A stretch of 60,174 nt of DNA from assembly GCA_904390925.1 (NCBI GenBank), contig CAJFMB010000011.1:1-60174 (forward strand), given 5' to 3'. Of this stretch, positions 37,057 through 41,133 are shown piece after piece. A program made the translations under genes and the position numbers. The stretch comes from an uncultured Subdoligranulum sp. (GTDB lineage Bacteria > Bacillota > Clostridia > Oscillospirales > Ruminococcaceae). Position 1 is the stretch's first letter; the number at the start of each line of letters is the position of its first letter. Under the pieces are notes generated by a model, which saw only the letters and a program-made list of their open reading frames with translations, made no database searches and had not been told where the DNA came from.

Positions 37057-37848
37057 TCAGACACCAAACACGGCCCGGGCGTTGGCGGCGGTCAAGGTCA
37101 GTACCTCCTGGGCCGACATGCCCCACAGCTCGCCGATGTGTGCCGCCACATGCACGATGTTGCGGCTGTCGTTGCGCCGACCCCGCACCGGTTCGGGGGA
37201 CATATAGGGACAGTCGGTTTCCAGCACCACTGCCTCGTGGGGGATGGCGGCCAGCACCTTCGCCGCCCGCTTGGAGCCCTTGTAGGTGGAGGAACCGCCA
37301 AAGCCCAGGTGCATTCCCTGTGCCACCAGCCAGGCGGCGTCCTCGGCGCTGCCGCTGTAACAGTGCAGCACACCCCGGGGCCGGTATTTTTTCAAAAGCT
37401 CGTAGGTCTCGGCGTGAGCCTCCCGGTCATGGACCGAAACCGGAAGCTCCAGCTCGGCGGCCAGCTGCAGCTGGGCTTCAAACAGGTCGTACTGCTCCCG
37501 GGCGGGCAGCGGCCAGTGATGGTCCAGGCCGATTTCCCCGACGGCAACCACCGTCGGGTCCTCCAACATCGGGCGCAGGACAGCCAGTTCGGCGCGCCAG
37601 TCCCCGTGATAGACGGCCACAGTGGGGGCATCCTCCTCGCCCAGGCTTTCGGGATGGATGCCCAGCGCCGCATGCACAAAGGGGTAGCGCCGGGCCAGTG
37701 CCAGCACCTGCGGCGCATCGCCCGAATGGGTGGCGCATTCCAGCACCCCCACCACACCGCTTTCCGGCAGTGCCTGCATCAGGTCCTCCCGGTCGGCGTC
37801 AAACTGGTGGGAAGAGTAATGGGCATGGGTATCGAAAATATCAGTCAT
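37057..37848 (-). CDS. tatD: TatD family metal-dependent hydrolase / DNase
   Basis: A 263-aa amidohydrolase-fold protein with the TatD metal-ligand set: IFDTHAHYSSHQF, AVGEIGLDHHW (with the Glu), VSVHDREAH, LHCYSG and LETDCPYMSPEP. TatD-type enzymes are 3'-5' DNases and possibly D-aminoacyl-tRNA deacylase-like enzymes. metG-tatD linkage is widespread in Firmicutes (B. subtilis metS-yabD). Here only a transporter gene separates them. Its start overlaps the EamA gene end by 8 nt. Confidence 0.9.
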   Translation of the reverse strand: MTDIFDTHAHYSSHQFDADREDLMQALPESGVVGVLECATHSGDAPQVLALARRYPFVHAALGIHPESLGEEDAPTVAVYHGDWRAELAVLRPMLEDPTVVAVGEIGLDHHWPLPAREQYDLFEAQLQLAAELELPVSVHDREAHAETYELLKKYRPRGVLHCYSGSAEDAAWLVAQGMHLGFGGSSTYKGSKRAAKVLAAIPHEAVVLETDCPYMSPEPVRGRRNDSRNIVHVAAHIGELWGMSAQEVLTLTAANARAVFGV

Positions 37849-38812
37849 GGTGGGCCTCCTTTGACCTTGCAGCGCGCAGATTGACCATCCAGATGCCCGC
37901 GCAGACCAGCGCCAGGGCGGCCAGATACCGCCAGTCCAGCAGCGTCTCGCCGTTGAGCTGTGCCGACAGTAACACCGTCACCACGGGGATCAGCAGCCCG
38001 AACACGGCAATGCGGGAAACCGGGTTGTTCTTCATTAGCAGCGCCCACAGCACATAGCCAGCGCCGGAGATGAAGGCGAGAAACAGCAGCACCGGCACCC
38101 CTGCCGGGCTTTGGGGCTGCAGCCGGCCGCCCATGGCAAAGCCCAGCAGCGCCAGGGCAGCGCCGCCGGCACCCAGATTCAGGCAGCAGACCGAAAAGCT
38201 GTCCGCCCGGTGGGTGACGGATTTGTTCCAGGGCCCGGCTGCAGCAAACACCACGGCGGCTGCCAGCATGGCCAGCATGCCGGGCAGACTGCCGCCCTCG
38301 CCGCCGCTGACACTGGCCAGCAGCACACCGCCAAAGCCCAGAAGGCAGCCCAGCGCCTTGCGCAGCGTCATCCGGTCACTGCCGCCGCAGAGAAAATGCG
38401 CCAGAATGACCCCCAGAAAACTCTGGGTGCTGTTGAGAATGCTGCCCAGCGCGCCGGTCAGCACAGCGGCGGCGGAATAGTACAGCGCATACTGCAACCC
38501 GGTCTGCCAAAGACCCAGCGCACAGCATTCGGCCAGCACACGGCCCCGGGGCATTTGGGGTATCCGCCGGTTCAGCGCCCAGCCGCAGAGCCAGACCATG
38601 ATGGCGGCGATCAGAAACCGCACCCCGGCAAATACCAGGATGGAGGGGGTATCCTCGGATGCAATGTCATACAGCCGGTAACCCAGCTTGATGAAGGGAA
38701 ACGCCGCGCCCCACAGACAGTTGCAAAGCACCGCCAGCCCCACCGCGGCGCCGGGATGGGAAAACAGCGCGTCCAGCCGGGACATCCCGGCCTGATGTAC
38801 AGGTTCAGACAA
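37841..38812 (-). CDS. EamA/DMT superfamily transporter
   Basis: A 323-aa protein with ten membrane helices in two EamA repeats (LAVLCNCLWGAAFPFIKLGY; AGYVLWALLMKNNPVSRIAVFGLLIPVVTVLL), typical of drug/metabolite exporters. The start is TTG (38812..38810) because AGGAGG lies eight nt upstream; the open frame extends farther back to 38908 without a ribosome binding site and into the metG end. It lies 64 nt downstream of metG. The substrate cannot be deduced; the metG context might suggest an amino acid. Confidence 0.82.
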   Translation of the reverse strand: MSEPVHQAGMSRLDALFSHPGAAVGLAVLCNCLWGAAFPFIKLGYRLYDIASEDTPSILVFAGVRFLIAAIMVWLCGWALNRRIPQMPRGRVLAECCALGLWQTGLQYALYYSAAAVLTGALGSILNSTQSFLGVILAHFLCGGSDRMTLRKALGCLLGFGGVLLASVSGGEGGSLPGMLAMLAAAVVFAAAGPWNKSVTHRADSFSVCCLNLGAGGAALALLGFAMGGRLQPQSPAGVPVLLFLAFISGAGYVLWALLMKNNPVSRIAVFGLLIPVVTVLLSAQLNGETLLDWRYLAALALVCAGIWMVNLRAARSKEAHHD

Positions 38813-38876
38813 GCAAAGAACCTCCTGTTGACAAAAATACCGCCGCCGGCAGATGTGCGCCGACGGCGGCAGAAAC

Positions 38877-40892
38877 TCAGTGGATACGGCTTCCGGTCGT
38901 TGCTTCATCGGGGAAGAAGGGGATAATGCAGCCTCCGTCAGGCGTGTCGGCAGCCACGATCATGCCTTCGCTGACATACTTGCCCTTCATCATCGGACGG
39001 GGGGCCAGGTTGGCCACAATGGCCACCTTCTTGCCGATCAGGTCCTCGGGCTTGTACCACTTGGCAATGCCGGACAGGATGCAGCGCTCCCGCTCGCCGT
39101 CAAAAACAGTCAGGTGCAGCAGCTTCTTGCTCTCCTTCATGGCCTCGCAGGCGCGGATCTCGCCCACCCGCAGCTCGGACTTCATAAAGTCGTCAAAGGT
39201 GATCTCCGGCTCGTGGTCGGCGATCTCCACCGGGGCAGCCTCCGTTTTGGGCTGGCCGGCCTTCTCGGCGTCGCTCAGGGCAGCCTGGGCAGCGGCTTTC
39301 TGGGCAGCCTCCATGGCTTCCAGCTCGGCCAGTTCCTTCTTGGCGTCAATGCGGGGGAAGATGTTCTCGCCCTTGTGCAGCGTGCAGGCGGCAGGCATCG
39401 CGCCGAATGCGGCAGCGCTGTCCCAGCTGCGCAGGCTGTCCTCCGTCACGCCCAGCTGGGCAAAGATCTTGTCGCAGGCGGCGGGCATGAAGGGCTGCAG
39501 CAGGGTGGCGCAGAGGCGCAGCGTCTCTGCCAGGTTGTACAGCACCCGGGCCAGACGCGGCTTTTTGGCCTCGTCCTTGGCCAGCACCCAGGGGGCGGTC
39601 TCGTCAATATACTTGTTGGCGCGGGCAATCACCGCAAACACGTCGGCCAGGGCATTCTGGAAGGCGTACTTCTCCATGTCGGCCTCGTACTTGCCGCGCA
39701 GCTCGTTGGCCATGGCAATCAGTTCGGCGTCCTCAGGACCCTCGGCCTGGTCGGCGGGCAGGGTGCCGCCGAAATACTTGTCCGCCATGGCGGTGGTGCG
39801 GGACAGCAGGTTGCCCAGGTCATTGGCCAGATCCATGTTGATGCGGTTGATCAGCAGCTCGTTGGAGAAGTTGCCGTCGGTACCGAAGGGGAAGTCCCGC
39901 AGCAGGAAGTAGCGCAGCGCGTCGGCACTGTACCGCTCGGCCAGAATGTAGGGGTCCACCACGTTGCCCAGCGACTTGGACATCTTGCCGCCGTCCAGCA
40001 GCAGCCAGCCGTGGCCGAAGACATGCTTGGGCAGTGGCATATCCATGCTCATCAGCATGGCGGGCCAGATGATGGAATGGAACCGGACAATCTCCTTGCC
40101 CACAAAATGCACATCGGCGGGCCAGAAGGTTTCATAGTCGCTGTCGGGGTAACGGTCATTCATGAAGCCCAGTGCGGTGGTGTAGTTGAACAGGGCGTCG
40201 ATCCAGACGTAAACCACATGCTTGGGGTCAAAATCCACCGGCACGCCCCAGTTGAAGCTGGTCCGGCTGACGCACAGGTCCTCCAGACCCTTGTCGATGA
40301 AGTTGTTGACCATCTCGTTGACACGGGAGCGGGGCTGCAAAAAGTCGGTATTCACCAGCAGATCGCGTACCCGGTCGGAGTACTTGGAGAGACGGAAGAA
40401 GTAAGCCTCCTCCTCGGCATCCACCACGGGACGGCCACAGTCAGGGCAGCAGCCGTTGACCAGCTGGCTCTCGGTCCAGAAGCTCTCGCAGGGGGTGCAG
40501 TACTTGCCCTTGTAGGTGCCCTTGTAGATGTCACCCTTGTCGTACATCTTCTTGAAGATCTTCTGGATGGCGGCCACATGGTAGTCGTCGGTGGTGCGGA
40601 TGAAGCGGTCGTAGCTGATCTCCATCAGCTTCCACAGATCCTTGACGCCGCGGGGGCCTTCCACGATGTTGTCCACAAACTGTTTGGGGGTGATGCCGGC
40701 AGCCTCGGCTTTCTGCTCGATTTTCAGACCATGCTCGTCGGTGCCGGTCAGGAACATGACCTTGTAGCCCTGCAGCCGCTTGTAGCGGGCCATGGTATCG
40801 GTGGCTACGGTGCAGTAGGTATGGCCGATGTGCAGTTTGCTGCTGGGATAATAAATTGGCGTGGTAATGTAGAATTTCTTCTGATTCTCCAT
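38877..40892 (-). CDS. metG: Methionine--tRNA ligase
   Basis: Class I synthetase charging initiator and elongator tRNA-Met. The 671-aa protein has the HIGH box as SKLHIGHTYCTVATDTMARY and zinc-knuckle cysteines in CTPCESFW...CCPDCGRPV. The KMSKS loop is GGKMSKSLGNVVDP and the anticodon-binding helix bundle follows. The C-terminal EMAPII/Trbp111-like tRNA-binding domain covers about 565-671 (LRVGEIRACEAMKESKKLLHL...GIAKWYKPEDLIGKKV). ATG 40892 with GAGAAGGAGAG upstream is the start. It is preceded by an unusual leader with a small Met-rich peptide and an intrinsic terminator, suggesting transcription attenuation. Confidence 0.96.
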   Translation of the reverse strand: MENQKKFYITTPIYYPSSKLHIGHTYCTVATDTMARYKRLQGYKVMFLTGTDEHGLKIEQKAEAAGITPKQFVDNIVEGPRGVKDLWKLMEISYDRFIRTTDDYHVAAIQKIFKKMYDKGDIYKGTYKGKYCTPCESFWTESQLVNGCCPDCGRPVVDAEEEAYFFRLSKYSDRVRDLLVNTDFLQPRSRVNEMVNNFIDKGLEDLCVSRTSFNWGVPVDFDPKHVVYVWIDALFNYTTALGFMNDRYPDSDYETFWPADVHFVGKEIVRFHSIIWPAMLMSMDMPLPKHVFGHGWLLLDGGKMSKSLGNVVDPYILAERYSADALRYFLLRDFPFGTDGNFSNELLINRINMDLANDLGNLLSRTTAMADKYFGGTLPADQAEGPEDAELIAMANELRGKYEADMEKYAFQNALADVFAVIARANKYIDETAPWVLAKDEAKKPRLARVLYNLAETLRLCATLLQPFMPAACDKIFAQLGVTEDSLRSWDSAAAFGAMPAACTLHKGENIFPRIDAKKELAELEAMEAAQKAAAQAALSDAEKAGQPKTEAAPVEIADHEPEITFDDFMKSELRVGEIRACEAMKESKKLLHLTVFDGERERCILSGIAKWYKPEDLIGKKVAIVANLAPRPMMKGKYVSEGMIVAADTPDGGCIIPFFPDEATTGSRIH

Positions 40893-40921
40893 ACGGTAAC
40901 TCTCCTTCTCACAGTTGGGGG

Positions 40922-40961
40922 ACAAACAAAAACGGCAGCGGCGCGTTCGGCGCCCTGCCGT
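40922..40961 (-). terminator. Leader terminator (attenuator) upstream of metG
   Basis: A 12-bp GC-rich stem with one bulged G (5' arm 40961..40950, 3' arm ending 40932) is followed on the minus strand by TTTTTGTTTGT. It lies between the promoter at 41105-41133 and the metG ribosome binding site, so metG can only be transcribed when this terminator is bypassed. Confidence 0.8.
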
Positions 40962-40984
40962 GAATGCTTTCGGGTTCGCCCGGA

Positions 40985-41065
40985 TTACGGGCAGGGGAAA
41001 GCAGGCGCAGGCTGCCGAAGCGGGCTGCACATGCGCATCATTCCATCACGGTGTTCAGACTGCAT
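40985..41065 (-). CDS. Putative 26-aa leader peptide of metG with Met codon cluster
   Basis: A short ORF, ATG at 41065 to TAA at 40985, with a good GGAAGGAG ribosome binding site nine nt upstream. The peptide begins MQSEHRDGMMRMCSPL, with Met codons at positions 1, 9, 10 and 12. It lies entirely between the metG promoter and the attenuator hairpin. Stalling at the Met cluster would leave the GC-rich stretch of codons 16-22 free. That stretch (CTGCGCCTGC) can pair imperfectly with the 5' arm of the terminator. Translation is not demonstrated. Confidence 0.65.
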   Translation of the reverse strand: MQSEHRDGMMRMCSPLRQPAPAFPCP

Positions 41066-41104
41066 GACAGCACACTCCTTCCCCAGACTGCAGTTTATAG
41101 TTTC

Positions 41105-41133
41105 AGTATACCGGCCGAAAGGCATCCTGTCAA
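41105..41133 (-). promoter_or_regulatory. Sigma-A promoter of the metG operon
   Basis: Minus-strand TTGACA (41133..41128), 17-bp spacer and TATACT (41110..41105). It gives a leader of about 205 nt before metG. Confidence 0.85.

Follow-up and report, generated by a model that had tools for sequence, protein, structure and literature searches.

A candidate methionine-reading transcription attenuator in the leaders of metG and metQ in Gemmiger

Introduction

How is metG, the gene of methionyl-tRNA synthetase, controlled in the genome from which the window derives (an uncultured Subdoligranulum sp.; the window is the whole stretch of 60,174 nucleotides analysed here)? In Firmicutes, genes of the same kinds are controlled by Met T-boxes and SAM (S-box) riboswitches, often by means of a terminator and an antiterminator. 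Those RNAs respond directly to uncharged tRNA or SAM and do not require translation. In trp-type attenuators, by contrast, a leader peptide is translated, and the protector, antiterminator and terminator helices exclude one another. The evidence assembled below, which is of sequence and predicted structure, makes it very likely that the metG leader is a methionine-reading, ribosome-mediated transcription attenuator, by far the best explanation of its features.

Results

Architecture of the metG leader

The elements of the leader follow one another on the minus strand from the promoter to metG (Table 1). The promoter at 41133-41105, TTGACA-17-TATACT, has 11 of 12 consensus matches, and one such site was found against a shuffle mean of 0.2. 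The leader ORF of 26 codons is preceded by the ribosome binding site (RBS) AAGGAG and carries Met codons at positions 9, 10 and 12. It is followed by an intrinsic terminator, a hairpin at 40960-40933 with a T-run, with a folding energy of -22.4 kcal/mol. The original prediction had named these three elements from the DNA letters and had seen no T-box consensus, and all four statements hold. At its gathering threshold Rfam finds no family in the leader region; at a relaxed threshold it returns only three sub-threshold matches to unrelated families, and neither a T-box (RF00230) nor a SAM riboswitch family is among them. The leader RNA folds better than its shuffles (z -2.63; 1 of 200 shuffles as good). 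A simple consensus scan for terminators does not list the leader terminator (40960-40928), in our reading because the stem is bulged; a site resembling a terminator is listed by that scan at 41211-41175, behind the upstream ORF. Transcription of metG presumably continues through the EamA transporter gene and tatD.

Table 1 Features of the metG leader and the downstream genes in the window.
Feature	Position	Strand	Basis
Sigma-70 type promoter, TTGACA-N17-TATACT	41105..41133	-	consensus scan
Leader ORF, 26 codons and stop, encoding MQSEHRDGMMRMCSPLRQPAPAFPCP*	40985..41065	-	translation, homologues
Putative Met control codons ATG ATG CGC ATG, codons 9-12 (Met at 9, 10, 12)	41030..41041	-	
Strand 1, GTGCAG, 5' strand of the 1:2 protector hairpin (partner CTGCGC)	41025..41030	-	covariation
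CTGCGC, 3' strand of the 1:2 protector hairpin	41005..41010	-	covariation
Strand 2, CTTCGGCAGCCTGC, antiterminator 5' strand, codons 16-20	41007..41020	-	pairing with strand 3
P2 hairpin, GCTTTC...GAAAGC, containing the leader stop codon, between strands 2 and 3	40966..41002	-	folding
Strand 3, terminator 5' arm, CGGCAGGGCGCCGAAC	40945..40960	-	folding, covariation
Intrinsic terminator hairpin and T-run	40928..40960	-	folding
metG, methionyl-tRNA synthetase with C-terminal tRNA-binding domain	38877..40892	-	Pfam
EamA transporter gene and tatD, downstream of metG in the same direction	37057..38887	-	Pfam

Leaders before metG and metQ across Gemmiger

A DNA search with the leader gave matches in 27 of 61 relatives and, within Gemmiger, in 24 of 35 genomes at E ≤ 0.01; three matches beyond the genus are short and were judged spurious. 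The matches that were read stand before two genes, metG and metQ (NlpA lipoprotein family), both of which concern methionine. The gene order is metQ-metN-metI in L044 and metQ-metN in L038, whose contig ends soon after (Pfam), and in the two loci read further the metN behind metQ carries a NIL domain.

The gene metG was found in 34 of 35 Gemmiger genomes. Of 32 loci examined, one starts inside the gene; the remaining 31, with upstream DNA, were classed by eye. A leader with ORF and terminator precedes metG in seven of them (G000, G012, G002, G024, G003, G007 and G030). The other 24 are without the attenuator: seven have only a different mini-ORF, ending PGFRM or PGFRMC.., and 17 have neither. 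For metQ, found in 32 of 35 Gemmiger genomes with 30 loci fetched, a Met-rich leader is present at 29 loci and the thirtieth starts inside the gene. The window genome's own metQ has such a leader, MYRRDGMMMCMCSLLRQPVLASLCAFSGV (L088). Wherever the terminator is retained, the ORF is thus retained too, with no fewer than two Met codons in its cluster: all seven metG leaders have two or three (most, the window's apart, only two), and all 29 readable metQ leaders have three in a row. One further metG leader (L034, 2409-2560) lies on a contig titled Candidatus Acutalibacter and is identical to Gemmiger L056 over the kept columns of the alignment described below; the contig is probably a mis-binned Gemmiger contig.

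The Gemmiger genomes contain 3 to 12 T-box matches each, and 32 of 35 contain one SAM riboswitch match, which in the window genome stands before another gene, presumably metK. In a query directed at methionine auxotrophy, metH-like matches were obtained in 33 of 35 Gemmiger genomes, none above the curated cut-off.

Two alternative helices are conserved and covary

The alignment comprises 36 leaders, 28 of metQ and 8 of metG, with two metG rows identical in the kept columns. One Met codon (window 41032-41030), referred to here as the register Met, keeps its register in all of the leaders except L077 (35 of 36). In most leaders, the window's included, it is the last of the Met cluster; one extra Met codon separates it from strand 2 in L010, L015, L020 and L091-L093, and two do so in L108, L112 and L113. 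Strand 1, GTGCAG, begins at the last base of the register Met codon. Strand 2 reads CTNCGGCARCCTGY in most of the 36 leaders and starts 12 nt past the first base of that codon, except in L007 (13 nt) and in L077 (diverged); in the window (41020-41007) it pairs with 40958-40947 inside the terminator 5' arm.

The protector helix 1:2 shows standard pairs in 97.1% of 207 cells over the 36 leaders, compared with 17-61% when one strand is slid. Double-sided changes occur at 2 of its 6 pairs, which 2 of 500 shuffles reach, and no shuffle of 500 reaches its covariation score (because the leaders are related, shuffle figures here and below are not probabilities). The antiterminator helix 2:3 is paired in 96.2% of 346 cells, compared with 35-58% when slid, and neither this percentage nor the covariation score is reached by any of 500 shuffles; an earlier count over 25 rows agrees (95.1% of 288 cells). 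Two of its ten pairs are changed on both sides (ten cells), a pair count that 349 of 500 shuffles reach, and sliding by -3 and -1 gives 13 and 12 doubly changed cells compared with 10 unslid. Folding predicts the intrinsic terminator in 25 of 25 leaders of the first set, and in nascent RNAs lacking the terminator 3' arm strand 2 lies on strand 3 around an inner hairpin, again in 25 of 25. In all 36 aligned leaders the stop codon of the ORF lies within the inner hairpin, P2, whose mean z is -2.11 (31 of 36 below -1); the borders of P2 were set by a script heuristic that is rough for a few rows. In the metG leader of L077 the helices are a poor fit.

Which codon follows the register Met, Cys, Tyr or Arg, depends on the partner base, and the Cys codon looks like a by-product of pairing. 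A cysteine signal, considered on account of the MCMC run, was therefore ruled out: the Cys codon is replaced by Tyr or Arg with compensating bases, which leaves Met as the steadier residue. Farther upstream and outside the helix, every one of the 29 readable metQ leaders retains three consecutive ATG codons, which favours methionine as the signal.

These two helices replace the pairings first proposed for the leader. The original prediction had paired CTGCGCCTGC (codons 19-22) with the terminator 5' arm, and CGGCAGC with GCTGCCG in the 3' arm. The CTGCGC within the former belongs to the 1:2 protector, and the latter match is not the pairing found conserved. The proposed search for covarying antiterminator pairs in related leaders leads to the kept and covarying 2:3 helix of the 36 leaders.

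Folding with a masked ribosome and the proposed mechanism

With the RBS and codons 1-12 masked and the RNA extending to 40926, the predicted probability P of helix 2:3 is 0.68 and that of the terminator helix 3:4 is 0.05. Masking the RBS and codons 1-27 reverses the outcome, with P(2:3) of 0.00 and P(3:4) of 1.00. The switch from antiterminator to terminator that had been anticipated for masked folding is thus obtained with these extended masks, whereas single-footprint masks yield no switch in the full-length RNA: with one 30-nt footprint masked and the 5' UTR free, the terminator is preferred in every state tried (P 0.95-1.00). In a nascent RNA ending at 40942, a single footprint gives P(2:3) of 0.72 with the ribosome at Met9, Met10 or Met12, 0.48 at Cys13 and 0.00 at Leu16 or Pro20; P(2:3) is 0.95 with the ribosome at the stop codon and 0.72 without a ribosome. 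In the window RNA other folds are favoured over the 1:2 hairpin, whose P is at most 0.01. Since single-footprint masks either keep the terminator or also allow 2:3, the switch rests on timing and on occupancy of the RBS. A ribosome at the stop codon would sit inside P2 and part strands 2 and 3, so that the local terminator would win; timing would then decide.

The attenuator is envisaged as follows. RNA polymerase would start at about 41098, and a ribosome would translate the leader peptide. When charged Met-tRNA is scarce, the ribosome would pause within the Met cluster, and its pause at Met12 would be the most telling. A ribosome of the usual footprint stalled there would cover strand 1 and end just before strand 2. 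The 1:2 protector could then not form, and the freed strand 2 would pair with the terminator 5' arm around P2. The terminator would be blocked and metG would be transcribed, probably with the EamA gene and tatD. When Met-tRNA is plentiful, the ribosome would run over strand 2 into P2, where the stop codon lies, and the terminator would form. The original prediction of a trp-type Met attenuator on metG is supported as to mechanism and was mistaken in its pairing details; the response to Met-tRNA charging is inferred.

The same fold switch might be put to a less specific use, namely a constitutive partial terminator with a small ORF that couples metG to overall translation irrespective of methionine. 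Any mask that spans the RBS to codon 12 brings about the switch, and the response to methionine belongs to the conditional part of the scheme above, both of which accord with such coupling. It is nevertheless highly improbable: the consecutive Met codons of the metQ leaders lie upstream of the pairing region without exception, both target genes have to do with methionine, and in other families, too, there are Met/Cys-rich leaders before metQ (see below).

RNA pairing persists where the leader peptide differs

A second explanation places the signal in the peptide. According to it, the nascent peptide MxMCSxLRQP arrests the ribosome in response to methionine or SAM, much as TnaC does with free tryptophan. 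Arrest leaders of this sort exist, as the available part of the TnaC literature attests, and LRQP is kept in most leaders. Past the Met cluster, however, the peptide changes while the pairing is kept or re-registered. In L110, where LWHS stands in place of LRQP, strands 2 and 3 pair through the usual internal loop. In L108, L112 and L113, which read MMRKRP, CGTCCTG can pair with CGGGATG at the cost of two of the ten counted pairs. In L007 the frame is shifted over strand 2 (VFASAIC), yet 2:3 carries a compensating swap of C-G to U-A. No arrest peptide independent of the mRNA pairing emerged from these five leaders, and the explanation was rejected, the chance that it is right being very small. 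Covariation in the two alternative helices, and their survival in leaders with a different peptide or a shifted frame, show that it is the RNA rather than the peptide that is conserved.

Leaders in other genera and a second mini-ORF

The wider sample comprised 394 genomes of the order, which we take to be Oscillospirales, and metQ was found in 120 of them. Ninety-six metQ loci outside Gemmiger were scanned (28 from the family sample, 28 top matches in the order and 40 chosen, 27 of the latter for being permuted) and 95 were classed. In many genomes of the order the halves of MetQ/NlpA are swapped by circular permutation (L160, L162-L165 and L222-L248; by Pfam for L160). A Met-rich leader with a ribosome binding site lies within 560 nt of 13 of 32 circularly permuted metQ genes and of none of 63 ordinary ones. 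The 13 leaders are Met/Cys-rich and span seven families (f1, f10, f13, f14, f16, f19 and f21), for example MKKITAMMMEMCMCGRMCMAFHTPISDMFSETEM (L234) and MRITRRMMEMMMQMRLMCMCMVISVLSAAVLIF (L237). By eye they resemble those of Gemmiger in little beyond the Met/Cys codons. In nine of these 13 leaders a script detected a proper terminator behind the ORF, and possible antiterminator duplexes have raw energies of -7.9 to -20.6 kcal/mol. Before permuted metQ in L230 and L232 there is also a palindrome, TATAGATTnAATCTATA, that looks like a transcription-factor site.

A regular expression for the short T-box motif GGTGG(C/T)ACC(A/G)CG matches before 4 of the 32 permuted metQ genes (L241, L244, L245 and L247) and 12 of the 63 ordinary ones (L194-L200, L203, L207 and L211-L213), and metQ is probably under T-box control in these neighbouring lineages. 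Outside the genus metG was sought in the family, where 75 of 80 genomes have it (two of them Gemmiger), and the upstream regions of 28 metG loci were scanned. Their sole Met-rich ORF, at -761, was judged spurious. Rfam gave no match at 20 of these 28 metG loci and 20 of the 28 family metQ loci, the loci submitted to it.

Least credible of the alternatives is an unrecognised riboswitch or tRNA-binding leader that senses methionine, SAM or uncharged tRNA directly and in which the ORF is incidental: RNAs of that kind typically control genes such as metG and metQ, and the T-box motif does occur before metQ elsewhere, but Rfam has no match in the leader, whose conserved part is short and lies inside an ORF with a ribosome binding site, and the ATG codons are kept outside the paired region.

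A second mini-ORF, ending CGA-ATG-TG(A/C/T) or a few codons longer, was observed between the attenuator and metQ (L086, L089-L104, L106, L108 and L111-L115) or alone before metG (L063, L064, L073, L074, L076, L080 and L081), and in part at L160 and L222-L240. The CGA codon is present in 31 of 31 distinct Gemmiger copies, in a search that allowed any CGN and itself set the following ATG-TG; the preceding QPG codons show synonymous variation. Copies in other families encode another peptide (..LVRANFRFGRM), but CGAATGTG is found again. Across the 394 genomes of the order, in which the window's is the only Gemmiger genome, the mini-ORF pattern gave 2 matches compared with 1 in a reversed control, and is therefore at chance level there.

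Origin of the metG leader

In a tree of the leaders, seven of the eight metG leaders form one clade (bootstrap 100, SH-aLRT 99), with L077 apart. Under midpoint rooting the clade is nested within the metQ leaders, moderately supported by the values around it (91/79 and 93/76), and the metG attenuator is therefore probably derived from one of metQ. The proteins encoded by metG beneath these leaders fall in separated clades, and well-supported branches force three label changes. Leader and coding sequence would therefore have been exchanged independently at least once. The window metG is 93-94% identical to those of G012 and G002, and 66-67% identical to those of G024, G003, G007 and G030. The window gene (38877-40892) and those of two sister species belong to another lineage than the metG under a like leader in four species.

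Discussion

The metG leader resembles the trp-type attenuators of trp, his, leu, thr, ilv and phe in having a translated leader with control codons and mutually exclusive protector, antiterminator and terminator. It differs from them in its Met control codon and in the targets of such leaders in Gemmiger, a synthetase and an importer. It differs also in layout: the leader ORF contains strand 2, and its stop codon comes later, in the additional hairpin P2.

The accessible part of one survey names attenuators specific for His, Leu, Thr and Trp in Rfam, together with Ile/Val and Phe, and none for Met (PMC3766115). In bacilli a His leader precedes hisS or hisZ, according to the available text the first outside Proteobacteria and Actinobacteria to the knowledge of its authors (PMC2965389). 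For Actinobacteria, the consulted portion of a further study describes leaders of trp, trpS, leuS, ilvB and cys (Trp, Cys and Leu cases), none for methionine, and sees no conserved RNA structures upstream of the methionine operons (PMC1262725). A leucine-rich attenuator peptide appears in the excerpted report on Staphylococcus aureus (PMC5794164). The Gemmiger leaders share with these Gram-positive leader peptides the control of synthetase or amino-acid genes, and in the literature covered, to the extent of the text available, the methionine case occurs only here. None of the literature matches listed, which consist of titles and abstract openings and include few subscription journals, describes a methionine leader-peptide attenuator. 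The type of mechanism is thus classical, and the partial texts searched contain no methionine-specific form of it, whether on metG or on metQ.

A broader proposal is speculative and rather unlikely to hold in full. Met-rich leader attenuation may be widespread and overlooked in the order, evolving anew or moving between methionine genes. The mini-ORF with CGA-ATG-TG(A/C/T) at metQ may be a second sensor, perhaps a stop-proximal arrest or a Rho-type check, which would give two serial ribosome-based methionine sensors per transcript.

If the attenuator on metG is real, methionine would join the list of amino acids that leader peptides are known to read, and there would be an explanation for how a gut genus controls metG and metQ. 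Neighbouring lineages would then use different means, leader peptide, probable T-box or other, to control one and the same target gene. Methionine alone among the amino acids has tRNAs that serve initiation as well as elongation of every protein, and an attenuator built on Met codons must initiate at the very time that Met-tRNA is short. As Met tRNAs serve both purposes, such an attenuator would be a sharp test case for the balance between initiator and elongator charging. Here, very probably, the ribosome itself reports a shortage of methionine and thereby raises the expression of the methionyl-tRNA synthetase gene, and the same switch stands before the methionine importer gene metQ.
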